Source: Bacillota bacterium (GTDB taxonomy: Bacteria > Bacillota > Clostridia > Peptostreptococcales > Anaerovoracaceae). Taken from it: a DNA stretch of 64,000 nucleotides. Under the pieces are notes generated by a model that saw only the letters and a program-made list of their open reading frames with translations, ran no database searches and was not told where the DNA came from. The stretch covers positions 1-64,000 of the forward strand of contig JANYJS010000094.1 of NCBI GenBank assembly GCA_025361765.1, written 5' to 3'. Below, piece after piece: positions 55,832 to 61,847 of the stretch. Numbering within the stretch: position 1 is the first letter of the stretch; each line of letters opens with the position of its first letter. Both the position numbers and the translations under genes were made by a program.

Positions 55832-56428
55832 ATGAGCAAAGTAACTTTTAAGCCTGGCACCATGGTTTATCCTGTGCCTGCCGTCATGGTATCTTGTGGA
55901 TCCACTGAAGAGACTCAAAACATCATCACAATTGCATGGACGGGAATCGTCAATTCTGAGCCTCCTATGACCTACATTTCTGTTAGAAAATCAAGGCATT
56001 CCCATGGCATTATTTTGCGGGAGAGAGAGTTTGTTATTAATTTAGGTACAGAAAAGCTTGCTAAACAATTGGATTTTTGTGGCGTGAGATCCGGTTTAGA
56101 TATCAAAAAATTTGAGACTCAAAAATTAACGCCAATTCCTACAATCCACTTAAAATGTCCTATGATTGAGGAATCACCCGTCAATATTGAATGCAGAGTC
56201 ACTCATGTGCTGGAATTCCCATCCCATGACATGTTTATAGCAGAAATTTTAGCCGTCCATGCAAACGAAGATCTCATGAATAAAACTGGAAAGCTTGAGC
56301 TTGAAAATGCGAAATTGCTTTGCTATAGCCATGGGGATTACTACGGTTTATCAAAATCAATTGGCAAATTTGGCTATTCCGTCATGAAGGCCAAAACAAA
56401 AAAGAGACGAAGCAAGTTCATAAAATAA
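55832..56428 (+). CDS. Flavin reductase-like FMN-binding protein
   Basis: This 198-residue protein of the flavin reductase/FMN-binding split-barrel family has PVPAVMVSCGS near its start, ITIAWTGIVNSEPPM and REFVINLGTEKLAKQLDFCG. Such proteins in anaerobes often bind FMN and serve in small redox reactions; the partner is not known. AAGGAGG lies before the ATG, nine bases after rluD. A bidirectional terminator follows. Confidence 0.85.
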   Translation: MSKVTFKPGTMVYPVPAVMVSCGSTEETQNIITIAWTGIVNSEPPMTYISVRKSRHSHGIILREREFVINLGTEKLAKQLDFCGVRSGLDIKKFETQKLTPIPTIHLKCPMIEESPVNIECRVTHVLEFPSHDMFIAEILAVHANEDLMNKTGKLELENAKLLCYSHGDYYGLSKSIGKFGYSVMKAKTKKRRSKFIK

Positions 56429-56432
56429 TTAT

Positions 56433-56490
56433 GTCAAAAGGCAAGACTGATTCATAAAAACATCAGACTTGCCTTTTGACAATTTTCTTT
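56433..56490. terminator. Bidirectional terminator after the flavin reductase
   Basis: GTCAAAAGGCAAG-A-CTGAT (56433-56451) pairs with the matching 3' arm (56462-56480) in 18 of 19 positions around a 10-base loop, and AATTTTCTTTT follows. It can end both the plus-strand gene and the small minus-strand gene. Confidence 0.88.
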
Positions 56491-56537: not shown

Positions 56538-56687
56538 CTAGTAACTCTTGATGTACTTCACGCAATCTTCACAAATTTGCTTTCCTTTGAAATGAAGATT
56601 GTTTTCTGGGTTTCCACATAGTTCACAGACAATTTGACCTTTTCCCTCAGGATCGAAATAGTGCAAAGAATTAATTGTTTTTTTCAT
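56538..56687 (-). CDS. Small zinc-ribbon protein, unknown function
   Basis: This is an overlooked 49-residue gene. The protein carries Cys at 21, 24, 39 and 42 (CELC and CEDC, a CX2C-X14-CX2C pattern), which should bind one zinc ion. It starts MKKTINSLHYFDPEGKG and ends CVKYIKSY. AAGGATT lies seven bases before the ATG, a promoter (56791-56763 on the minus strand) precedes it, and a terminator follows. No family is recognised; it could be a small regulator or a ribosome- or complex-linked zinc protein. Confidence 0.75.
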   Translation of the reverse strand: MKKTINSLHYFDPEGKGQIVCELCGNPENNLHFKGKQICEDCVKYIKSY

Positions 56688-56762
56688 AATAAATCCTTTT
56701 CTTAATAATCAAATGATTTGAGCATCTCATCCGCAAAGCTTTGAATTATTAGTTCCAAATTC

Positions 56763-56791
56763 ATCATATCATAAAGATATACAATATACAA
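56763..56791 (-). promoter_or_regulatory. Promoter of the small zinc-ribbon gene
   Basis: On the minus strand, TTGTAT (56791-56786), a 17-bp spacer and TATGAT (56768-56763) lie about 75 bases upstream of the ATG. The -35 box lies inside the inverted repeat 56784-56804. Confidence 0.6.
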
Positions 56792-56804
56792 CAATTTTGT
56801 ATAT
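56784..56804. promoter_or_regulatory. Operator-like inverted repeat over the -35 box
   Basis: ATATACAA and TTGTATAT form a perfect 8-bp inverted repeat with spacer CAATT. It covers the -35 box of the small gene on the minus strand, a typical place for a repressor. Confidence 0.55.
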
Positions 56805-56955
56805 AAATGTAATATAATTCCATATATTATATTTTATTTTAACAGTAATACTATTTTAATACAATTAAAACTTGATTTTAGTGTTAAAACAGCCTGAAGA
56901 ATGTTAAAATATGAGTCGAAAAGGTATGCGATTAATTCTGGAAGGAGTGGGTGAC

Positions 56956-57794: not shown

Positions 57795-60059
57795 ATGAAA
57801 CAACTTGACAGAAACAAAAGGATTGTAGCAGTAATTGCCTTAGTGATGTTATTAACGACTTTATCTACGGGATATACGTATTACCAGGGATTAGGCGAAG
57901 CAGTTTTTCAGGCAGAAACCTATGTAACCCATAACATATTTTATCAAGAGCAAATTTCAGTCAATAACAGGCAGACTGTTGAGCACTCCTACGTTACGGA
58001 GCAACTAACTATTGAAGAAGGCATAATGCCATACGTTTTTGTAGGGGATGTTACGGGCAGGTGCAATCTGACCTATATGAAGGGACTGCTTAAAGAAGAG
58101 GGCTATACCGTTGTCGCAGGAATAAATGGAGATTTTTATGATACAGTAACTGGTGTGCCCCTAGGTATGACCATTCATGAAGGTAAAATTAAAAACTCAG
58201 GACAGAATTACAGCAACGCAATCGGATTTAAAAACGATGGAGCAGCTTTTGTAGCACCATTGAGATTTGACTTCAATTATACAGTAAACGGAAGCACGTC
58301 CTATGCGTTTAATCATATTAACAAGCCAAAAGGATCCTCAAATGGCATTTACTTTTATAACAGTCAATATGCCTCATCAACGCGTACGCAGGAAGACTCT
58401 ACAGAAGTGGTATTAACGGCAATAAACGGAACAGAACTTTCAATTGGAGGTACAATTGAGGCACAAGTTTCGGCAGTCATTCCAAACACAAAGAACACAC
58501 CGATTGGCGAAAATCAAATTGTGCTTTCAGCACCAAATAGCGGTGAGAATGCAGCGGTTTTGGCGGCTCTTGCCCCTTCGGATTCGGTCTCGTTTACAGT
58601 GACGGATCAGACGGGTGTCTGGGGAGACGCTAAAGAAGCCATCGGAGCGTATCAGGTCATTGCTCAAGACGGATTTGTAACTACTACGGATCAAATATCA
58701 CAGCCACGCACCTGCCTTGGCATCAAAGCTGATGGCAGCATCATATTCTTCGCAGTGGACGGCAGAAGTCCTGGCTATTCAATGGGGATGACGCTGACAG
58801 AAGTTGCAAGCTACCTGGTTGAAAAAGGATGCGTTTCGGCAATTAACCTTGATGGCGGCGGTTCGACGACCATGATGATCAGGATGCCGGGGGACAGTGA
58901 GGCGAGCATTGTCAATAAGCCATCTGACGGAAAAGAACGTTCAGTTTCTAACGGATTGTTATTTGTTTCCAAGGATGCAACGCCTGATGTCGCGAGCAAT
59001 CTCCACATTTATCCACTCGCTACGTTTATGCTTCCAGGATCACAAATCAAAATGAGCGTGAAAGCTACGGATCATTTTTACTGGCCAGCACAACTAGATG
59101 AAGAAATAACTTATGATGCTGATAGTAACCTAGGCAGCATAAATAGTGAAGGCATGTTTACAGCAGGTGAAAGTACTGGAGAGGGACTGGTTTCTGCAAC
59201 CGCAGACTTAATGAAATCGACGGCCAGAATTCTTATTACACAAGATATATCAATCAATCCTGACAAAAGCGAAATAATCATAGAGCCAAATAAATCAATT
59301 GATGTTAATGTCAAGGCCTCATACAGATACGTTCCGGTAGTATGCAGAGATGACCAATTCACATGGACCTGCGATAGCAGAATTGGAACTATTGATCAAA
59401 ATGGTGTTTTTGTAGCAGCGAGTCGCGGCGGAGTGTCCGGTAAAATATATATTTCATACAATGACAAAGAAACGACCATTCCTGTTCGCATAGGACCTTC
59501 TAAAGTTTCTTTTACGGATACAAACGGGCATTGGGCACAGAATTTTATAGAAATACTGGCAGCAAAAGGCATAGTGCAGGGCATGGGTGAGAATATATTC
59601 AGTCCCGACACCCAACTGACAAAAGCTCAGTTCTTAACAATGCTATCCAAGTCGATTATTGATCTTGACGTGTCACTATCACCGCCAGCAAGCTTCAGCG
59701 ATCTCAATCCTTTAGACTGGTATATGCCTTATGTGAATTGGGGCTATGCCAATAAAATAATCAGCGGAAATCCTGACGGAACATTTTCACCAAATACACC
59801 TATAACTAGGGAGCAAATGGCAGTCATACTCAATAATTTTGCTGCTTCTACTGGTACGGTGTTTAAACCGCTTGATGAAAATATTATTTTCACCGACGGA
59901 GATATGGTGAGCCCTTGGGCGCAGAAGTCAGTTAATGAAATTGCCAGTGCAGGCATCATGAATGGAAGGCCGGAAGGAAATTACGACCCCCTTGGCCAGG
60001 CAACTAGGGCAGAAGCCTCAAGAGTCATTTACAGCGTTGTTACAATTATGGAAAATTAA
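57795..60059 (+). CDS. Surface phosphodiester glycosidase with three SLH domains
   Basis: This 754-residue protein has an N-terminal signal or anchor (IVAVIALVMLLTTLSTGY), then a phosphodiester glycosidase (NAGPA) domain with GINGDFYDTVTGVPLGM and the INLDGGGSTTMMIR motif, two Ig-like beta regions and three SLH repeats near the C-terminus (DTNGHWAQNFIE, DLNPLDWYMPYVN and DGDMVSPWAQKSVNEI). SLH domains bind pyruvylated wall polymers, so the enzyme should be displayed on the cell surface and may cleave phosphodiester-linked sugars in wall or capsule polymers; the substrate is unknown. The last four bases overlap the converging rqcH gene. Confidence 0.88.
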   Translation: MKQLDRNKRIVAVIALVMLLTTLSTGYTYYQGLGEAVFQAETYVTHNIFYQEQISVNNRQTVEHSYVTEQLTIEEGIMPYVFVGDVTGRCNLTYMKGLLKEEGYTVVAGINGDFYDTVTGVPLGMTIHEGKIKNSGQNYSNAIGFKNDGAAFVAPLRFDFNYTVNGSTSYAFNHINKPKGSSNGIYFYNSQYASSTRTQEDSTEVVLTAINGTELSIGGTIEAQVSAVIPNTKNTPIGENQIVLSAPNSGENAAVLAALAPSDSVSFTVTDQTGVWGDAKEAIGAYQVIAQDGFVTTTDQISQPRTCLGIKADGSIIFFAVDGRSPGYSMGMTLTEVASYLVEKGCVSAINLDGGGSTTMMIRMPGDSEASIVNKPSDGKERSVSNGLLFVSKDATPDVASNLHIYPLATFMLPGSQIKMSVKATDHFYWPAQLDEEITYDADSNLGSINSEGMFTAGESTGEGLVSATADLMKSTARILITQDISINPDKSEIIIEPNKSIDVNVKASYRYVPVVCRDDQFTWTCDSRIGTIDQNGVFVAASRGGVSGKIYISYNDKETTIPVRIGPSKVSFTDTNGHWAQNFIEILAAKGIVQGMGENIFSPDTQLTKAQFLTMLSKSIIDLDVSLSPPASFSDLNPLDWYMPYVNWGYANKIISGNPDGTFSPNTPITREQMAVILNNFAASTGTVFKPLDENIIFTDGDMVSPWAQKSVNEIASAGIMNGRPEGNYDPLGQATRAEASRVIYSVVTIMEN

Positions 60060-61786
60060 GAAACAACGTATGGATTCACATAAATAGTTTTATTATTTAC
60101 AAATATGACCATGCCGGGCTTAGCCCCGGCTGGTTTTTTTACATGCCTGACCTGCGTATAATCCACGGGTACATTTTCTGAAAGCCTGGCTTTGCTGAAA
60201 TACGCTGCTAATGAAGCGGCCATTATAATGGTGGATTCAGGAACCTCTCTTCCTTCAGTGAAAATAATGACGTGAGAGCCGGGAATGTCTTTTGTATGAA
60301 GCCAAATATCTTTATTGGACGCTGTCTTAAAGGTTAACACATCATTTTCCTTATTGTTTCTTCCAACCAAGATGCGAAAATCATCGGGGGAAGTGTATGC
60401 GTAAGGAGCCAACTTAACTTTAGACACTTTGTAAGCGTTTTTTTTCTTTTTCATGTAGCCACCATCAACGACTTCCTGGCGGATTTCCTCTATATCTTCA
60501 TAATTTGAGGCGTTCTCAATATGCGTTAGAACAGATTCAAGATAGATAATATCCTTGCTGGCCTCTTCAAGTTGAATGGTTTTCTCCTGAATGGCTATCT
60601 TAGACTTGGCATATTTCTTAAAGTAGCGCTGAGCATTCTGTGAAGCTGAAAGGCGAGAATCTAGAATAATAGTGACAGGTTCATTGTTATAATAATTGAC
60701 GACAAGAACCTCCGTTGCTTTTGACGGTATGACATACATATTTGCAGTCAGAAGTTCACCAAAAAGTTTGAAAATTTCTGATCCCTCAGCCTGAAGCAGA
60801 TCTTGTGAGAGTTTTTGCTTCTTGAGATAGAGCTTTTCTAGGCTTGAGCTTATGGCTTTAAACAGATCCATGGACTTTTGTTTCATTTTATTTGAGGAGT
60901 CCTTGTGATCGTAAAAATATTCGGCGGCTTCTTGAATATCATTGAAAGGAACTTCCTTATATAAATATGAGGCTTCATAGAGATTAAAACAATAAAAGTC
61001 AATAGGAGCCCCGCTTTCATTAAGATAAACCCGAGGAGAGAAATCTCCAACTAGGAGTTTTTGTACGTAGCTGTTTAACAAAGAGTAAAGCTGACTAATC
61101 GAAGAAGCTTTGACACACATTTCCCTTGCAACAACTGGGCTAATTCCTTGAATTGAGGCAACTAGGGTTTTGGCCGCCGCATCTTGGTTAAAAAAGGCAT
61201 CATATTTATCACTTGTGCTGGATGAAGAACCAAATAATGAATTGAACATATGCTCAGTCAAATCAAAATAGGATATTTTCCCCTGAACCGGTGGGTAAAC
61301 ATATTGCAAACCTGGAAGTGTTTGACGGTAACGATTCACATCACTATGAATCCTTTTTATGCTATCAATAATTTTATTTGAAGAATCATCTATAAGGATA
61401 ATGTTGCTGTGCTTTCCCATGATTTCAATAATCAGCTTTTTATTTATAGGAAAACCCATCTCGTTGAAGCTTTCAATAGTAATTTCGACGATGCGCTCTG
61501 AATCCTTTTGGCAGATCGATTGGATTTTGCCATTTTGAATATGCTTTCTCAGAAGCATACAAAAGGCCATGGGATTTTGCGGATTTGATTTGCTCGATGT
61601 TATTAAATGAAGCCTCGCATGGCTGCTGCTTGAAGAGATGAGAAGTTTATGATTAAACTTGCCATTATGCACCAAAAAAATCAGTTCATCGGCTTCAGGC
61701 TGATAAATTTTTTCAATCTTACCACCTGTTAATTTATGACTTAACCCATATGTTGTGCTTGAAGTTACTATTCCATCAAAAGGCAT
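60056..61786 (-). CDS. rqcH: Rqc2-family ribosome quality-control factor RqcH (NFACT)
   Basis: This 576-residue NFACT protein binds stalled 50S subunits and adds C-terminal tails in characterised species; older names are FbpA and YloA. The N-terminal NFACT-N, HhH, coiled coil and NFACT-R (DFRILVGRNNKENDVLTFK, DIWLHTKDIPGSHVIIF) domains are all present. Residues 97-98 are Glu-Arg, where B. subtilis RqcH has the Asp-Arg pair needed for activity. Start ATG 61786 has GGAGG upstream; a further ATG five codons earlier overlaps it. It converges with the NAGPA gene with a 4-bp overlap of stops and no terminator. Confidence 0.92.
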   Translation of the reverse strand: MPFDGIVTSSTTYGLSHKLTGGKIEKIYQPEADELIFLVHNGKFNHKLLISSSSSHARLHLITSSKSNPQNPMAFCMLLRKHIQNGKIQSICQKDSERIVEITIESFNEMGFPINKKLIIEIMGKHSNIILIDDSSNKIIDSIKRIHSDVNRYRQTLPGLQYVYPPVQGKISYFDLTEHMFNSLFGSSSSTSDKYDAFFNQDAAAKTLVASIQGISPVVAREMCVKASSISQLYSLLNSYVQKLLVGDFSPRVYLNESGAPIDFYCFNLYEASYLYKEVPFNDIQEAAEYFYDHKDSSNKMKQKSMDLFKAISSSLEKLYLKKQKLSQDLLQAEGSEIFKLFGELLTANMYVIPSKATEVLVVNYYNNEPVTIILDSRLSASQNAQRYFKKYAKSKIAIQEKTIQLEEASKDIIYLESVLTHIENASNYEDIEEIRQEVVDGGYMKKKKNAYKVSKVKLAPYAYTSPDDFRILVGRNNKENDVLTFKTASNKDIWLHTKDIPGSHVIIFTEGREVPESTIIMAASLAAYFSKARLSENVPVDYTQVRHVKKPAGAKPGMVIFVNNKTIYVNPYVVS

Positions 61787-61847
61787 TGCAGTTTCCTCCA
61801 TAAATATATATAATTATGAATCATATCATATGCGGAGGTAAAAGTAT

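Follow-up and report, generated by a model that had tools for sequence, protein, structure and literature searches.

AbrB is a growth-phase (transition-state) regulator. In Bacillus subtilis its C-terminal domain functions in assembly, and activity requires Cys54; clostridial AbrB differs in this domain but keeps the Cys54 equivalent (PMC9598496). AbbA is described as an AbrB antirepressor in Bacillus (PMC3667857). SinI is a short protein that carries its repressor's heterodimer-forming surface and disarms SinR (PMC3163267). A third small protein, CsfB, is a treble-clef homodimer with Cys residues at positions 11, 14, 30 and 33; its second pair of Cys falls within the first helix turn, and dimerisation occurs through the hairpin and helix (PMC5890618). 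The locus studied here, in a Bacillota bacterium of the family Anaerovoracaceae, encodes a small protein that is, judged from its sequence, a stand-alone homologue of the finger at the C-terminus of clostridial AbrB, that is, of the presumed assembly domain of AbrB.

A sequence-only reading of the window (the whole 64,000-nucleotide stretch that was analysed) had proposed an unannotated gene for a 49-residue zinc-ribbon protein with its own promoter, operator and terminator. We found strong support for a real, conserved small zinc-finger protein encoded on the minus strand. The Cys at residues 21, 24, 39 and 42 form the proposed CX2C-X14-CX2C pattern within a 49-codon frame that begins with ATG, and the proposed ribosome-binding site, which is purine-rich, lies ahead of the start codon (Table 1). 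The gene itself was borne out by a 61%-identical protein at the same locus in a related genome, by invariant Cys and by low dN/dS; homologues with conserved Cys, whose absence would have counted against the gene, do exist. The kinship with AbrB, the conserved site and the spread through the host family go beyond the earlier reading. The small gene lies on the strand opposite both neighbours: a flavin-reductase-like gene, with its end at 56428, and a lipase-like one that starts at about 56911 or a little downstream; the neighbour names, here and in the relatives, were read from the sequence.

Table 1. Features of the small gene and of its proposed signals in the window
Feature	Position	Strand	Remarks
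Small zinc-finger protein gene (predicted treble clef)	56538..56687	(-)	49 aa, ATG start, TAG stop
Finger module, codons Cys21 to Lys47: CX2C-X14-CX2C and C-terminal helix, by sequence homologous to the AbrB C-terminal finger	56547..56627	(-)	bounds read from sequence
Ribosome-binding site AAAAGGA, 5' of ATG	56694..56702	(-)	sequence
Claimed promoter TTGTAT-17-TATGAT	56763..56791	(-)	8/12 matches, weak
Claimed operator, perfect 8-5-8 inverted repeat ATATACAA-AATTG-TTGTATAT	56784..56804	(.)	not above chance, not conserved in G035
Hairpin, probably a terminator common to the small gene and the convergent flavin-reductase-like gene	about 56432..56481	(.)	dG -29.0 kcal/mol on the minus strand

The proposed regulatory signals were less secure. 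Because the small gene converges on one neighbour and diverges from the other, its promoter is likely to lie somewhere within 56688-56911. The 17-bp-spaced promoter suggested earlier did not rise above chance: its hexamers give 8 of 12 matches, and it was not picked in a promoter scan that found 6 sites, compared with 4.7 +- 2.1 in shuffles. The operator exists as a perfect repeat, but 23% of dinucleotide-shuffled versions of this stretch (79% A+T) had an arm of at least 8, the longest found here, and no perfect 6-base repeat was found upstream of the G035 orthologue. Nested short repeats in the upstream stretch exceeded the shuffles (11 vs 3.0, P 0.002). As for the terminator, a strong hairpin (14+5 bp) is indeed present; it lies beyond the interval 56538-56804 first assigned to the gene and its signals, carries no clean U-tract on the strand of the small gene, and is shared with the convergent gene.

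Homologues of 34-66 aa were found across the host family, and many of them, at ~35-37 residues, consist of the finger alone. The genome G035 encodes a protein with 61% identity over all 49 residues at the same locus as the window gene. In an alignment of 36 stand-alone members, the four Cys, Phe33 and Glu40 were invariant, and the consensus of the stand-alone finger reads CSLCGNxYHNxxFKGGYVCEDCLxYIK. The dN/dS of close pairs was about 0.03-0.2 (median 0.18, 62 usable pairs); the gene is under purifying selection.

The chromosomal site is also conserved. A sequence-pattern scan of named genomes returned 46 loci, of which 41 were counted after removal of a false cyanobacterial match (L084) and four AbrB genes (L062, L068, L071 and L080); the 41 include L057 and L059, which look like one contig region from two bins. 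At 38 of these 41 non-AbrB loci, the gene occupied the same site opposite lspA-rluD, 37 having rluD, and one more (L052) lspA, where expected on the opposite strand, and the expected rluD/lspA neighbour was missing at L072, L077 and L081. At these three loci, in Family XIII genomes, the small protein lies away from the usual rluD site. Two records with the small protein (L072 and L077) come from Nm470_bin80, suggesting a paralogue or a repeated contig end. Named hosts include Emergencia and Aminicella, both of the Anaerovoracaceae. Among the genomes searched, the stand-alone form was nearly confined to the host family; the border is not absolute, as a similar stand-alone ORF occurs in another family of the same order (L025). 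Phages and plasmids, searched for a mobile origin, gave no match to the small protein. As far as these searches show, the stand-alone proteins make up a conserved and undescribed small-protein family; in open-licence papers we found no description of it or of the clostridial AbrB finger.

The first search for relatives returned the stand-alone proteins mixed with AbrB proteins of roughly 80 residues. When 18 stand-alone sequences were compared with 11 AbrB sequences by hhalign, 34 columns aligned with 41% identity (probability 96.8, E 2.8e-10). The clostridial-type C-terminal Cys4 finger is therefore present on this alignment, and the N-terminal SpoVT-AbrB DNA-binding domain is absent from the 49 residues, for which Pfam, read up to E 10, gave no match of AbrB type. 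A class-wide search found matches in 87 of 243 genomes. The best E-values outside the family, about 1e-8, belonged to AbrB, and all 40 non-family matches read, taken from among the higher-ranking ones, were AbrB C-terminal fingers (34 by motif, 6 by eye). Outside the family, the closest relatives are thus the Cys4 fingers at the C-terminus of clostridial AbrB, and the host genome itself encodes an AbrB with such a finger. Both kinds of protein have the CX2C-X14-CX2C spacing, an FKGK..C(E/D)DC core and a predicted hairpin plus helix; unlike clostridial AbrB, the small protein lacks the SpoVT-AbrB DNA-binding domain and has its own gene and locus. In clostridial AbrB the finger takes the place of the assembly (tetramerisation) domain of Bacillus AbrB, and in our alignment Cys54 would line up with the first Cys of the finger. 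Within Clostridia, some AbrB fingers read CIFCDNAK where others have CIFCGNAK, and some proteins combine two AbrB-type domains with a single finger (set L177, L178, L180; L185, L196, L199).

The AlphaFold2 model of the small protein had block-mean pLDDT values of 81-86 over residues 21-49, with a pTM of 0.44 and a poor N-terminus. Strands were predicted at 30-33 and 36-39, forming a hairpin, followed by a helix at 40-48, and prediction for the AbrB tail, made from only four sequences, gave the same order (61-64, 67-70 and 71-81). The second CX2C stands where the helix begins, which predicts a treble clef instead of a classical zinc ribbon; the earlier assignment to a small zinc-finger gene was right. 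The protein probably binds zinc. The treble clef is a common fold found in many families. Structure matches were weak (best Z 3.9) and mixed: uS14 and the ClpX zinc domain matched to much the same degree, and Csm1 was also among them, so no function can be chosen from the fold alone.

Database searches placed the protein in none of the curated families tested. No Pfam or NCBIfam model matched the window protein at its cut-off. A scan of 18 stand-alone members gave weak matches to scattered zinc families, the best being C1_2 (E 6.7e-05, cut-offs not given). Solved structures were matched by sequence only weakly (uS14, rubredoxin, ClpX, Gin), and the AbrB structure entries matched the N-domain only, with SpoVT reaching residue 63. 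Membership in the ClpX zinc-binding domain family (PF06689) was rejected at 13.4 bits against a cut-off of 27. The N-terminal zinc domain of ClpX resembles the small protein in having a treble clef plus a C-terminal helix (2ds5_A, Z 3.5, rmsd 1.8, 34 aligned), but the small protein is not fused to an AAA+ ATPase. Membership in Gin/CsfB (PF10764) was also rejected, with no match for the window protein and matches for 2 of the 18 members (best E 0.031). A treble clef with one CX2C and a second CX2C at the helix start, as in Gin/CsfB, is present in the AlphaFold model, a feature common to many families. A PF10764 search of the host genome gave no match and its 14 controls were equally silent, so it was uninformative; Gin was not listed by VIA-align, an absence that proves nothing.

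The distribution of the gene was examined in 150 family genomes that were at least 90% complete. The stand-alone profile matched 108 of them, some through AbrB itself; after AbrB self-matches were removed, the gene was counted as present (E at most 1e-6) in 96. It occurred in 93 of the 120 genomes with a finger-bearing AbrB vs 3 of the 30 without (Fisher 9e-12). Seven weaker matches read as genuine stand-alone ORFs (G029, G052, G057, G100, G005, G162 and G117; G188 was left out as ClpX, by eye from its sequence) brought the total to 103 genomes, or 100/120 vs 3/30. The exceptions were G023 (92% complete), which has the small gene and no detected AbrB, and G123 and G141, in which AbrB matches were N-terminal only. 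Many AbrB-positive lineages have no small gene, and the neighbours of the small gene are not AbrB. In those AbrB-less genomes where the fetched stretch contained the site, the site was otherwise intact and the gene was missing.

The gene was found in 49 of 53 genomes with a strong Spo0A match and in 47 of 97 without. Among the latter the link with AbrB persisted (46/69 vs 1/28), which makes a sporulation gene a weak explanation. YlmH, taken as a control, showed no link to the small gene (p 0.43). In the host genome, the Spo0A C-domain matches (G000:C85:516-824 and C109:1507-1809; 1e-29 and 1e-35) were weaker than those of the 53 relatives, which fell below 1e-40. On the RqcH trees, AbrB changed only about 4 times (55-genus tree, built from the first-listed genome per genus). 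Pagel's test on these 55 genomes gave LR 8.3 and p 0.08, and an independent-pairs test on the same tree had no power and cannot decide. A 30-genome tree was chosen so as to include discordant genomes. The quick tree had partial support and long branches for G023, G020 and G010, and the G010 row looks over-long at its start. Co-occurrence of the small gene and AbrB mostly reflects shared ancestry; because AbrB changes are few and Pagel's p is 0.08, the link after phylogenetic correction is suggestive rather than shown.

These data bear on several other roles for the protein. It might act as a CsfB/Gin-like treble clef, a homodimer that blocks a sigma factor, or a different transcription factor, and not AbrB. 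CsfB/Gin (anti-sigma G/E) and the small protein are both small treble clefs with four Cys, CsfB is such a homodimer and CsfB/Gin binds regulators; the Gin structure 5n7y matched the stand-alone profile weakly (E 0.21), in addition to the two Pfam Gin matches among the members. However, the small protein is AbrB-like in sequence, the window protein has no Gin match and matches the AbrB finger far better. Many genomes that lack a strong Spo0A match carry the gene, which is therefore not bound to sporulation sigma factors, and we consider this role improbable. We also give little credence to a nucleic-acid or ribosome-associated finger tied to the neighbouring rqcH (ribosome quality control). The small gene shares its strand with rqcH and follows directly downstream of it at L034, L037, L022, L078 and L012, and by coordinates in G005, G029 and G057; the modelled fold resembles zinc-type uS14, and some relatives have basic RGR-type N-terminal stretches. 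Yet in the window two opposite-strand genes part it from rqcH (RqcH, 60056-61801), and the sequence is closer to AbrB than to uS14. All 63 genomes searched had RqcH, whether or not they carried the small gene, and this distribution gives no support to a partnership with RqcH. Replacement of YlmH/RqcP by the small protein was rejected as well: YlmH occurs in 114 of 150 genomes, independently of the small gene. In the host genome RqcH is present but YlmH/RqcP (PF17774) gave no match, and 36 of the 150 family genomes are likewise without a match.

A stand-alone DNA- or promoter-binding regulator, descended from the AbrB finger with AbrB contact lost, would account for the homology, for the persistence of the gene in G023 and for the RGRKKKY-like basic N-termini of some members. 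We think this unlikely, as the AbrB DNA-binding domain is missing and many members, at about 35 residues, have little room outside the finger. Basic stretches before the finger, such as RGRKKKY and RRGRRKAY, were seen at L012, L264 (G016), L249 (G029) and L261 (G021); they might touch DNA, and we take them to be reminiscent of AT-hooks. It is hardly credible that the frame is a chance or decaying ORF with no product, given the invariant Cys, the purifying selection, the conserved site and the ribosome sites.

The homology to the AbrB finger, the dimerisation of CsfB and the precedent of SinI together suggest finger-to-finger pairing of the small protein with AbrB. Such pairing would alter AbrB assembly, changing its multimeric state, and the altered assembly would relieve or retune AbrB control, by analogy with SinI and SinR. 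We regard this mechanism as quite possible, if still somewhat short of probable. Beyond the homology, we infer all of its steps, namely zinc binding, dimerisation, AbrB as the partner and the direction of the effect. SinI is a helical hairpin, whereas the small protein is a zinc finger whose gene is not adjacent to that of its presumed target; its antagonism is a proposal. Like SinI (PMC3163267), the small protein is short and would have a multimerisation surface in common with a repressor. Homology to the corresponding domain of the target was found here in the AbrB finger, and by extension from B. subtilis (PMC9598496) this finger would multimerise AbrB in clostridia. The small protein would resemble AbbA in acting on AbrB. 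AbbA itself is unrelated and binds to the N-domain of AbrB. A wider reading, which we find doubtful, is that a dedicated antagonist of AbrB arose in the Anaerovoracaceae from the assembly finger of AbrB itself. This microprotein, of roughly 35-60 residues and fixed in chromosomal position, would poison or reshape the multimers of AbrB, as the zinc-dependent equivalent of SinI and AbbA in hosts many of which have no strong Spo0A match.

Whatever the mechanism, the locus defines a conserved small-protein family that is easily missed by short-gene annotation. If pairing with AbrB is true, the microprotein would be made from the very assembly domain of a bacterial regulator, as is known for SinI/SinR, and the finger that replaces the Bacillus AbrB tail would be an interaction module. 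AbrB control would then become testable in little-studied gut clostridia.
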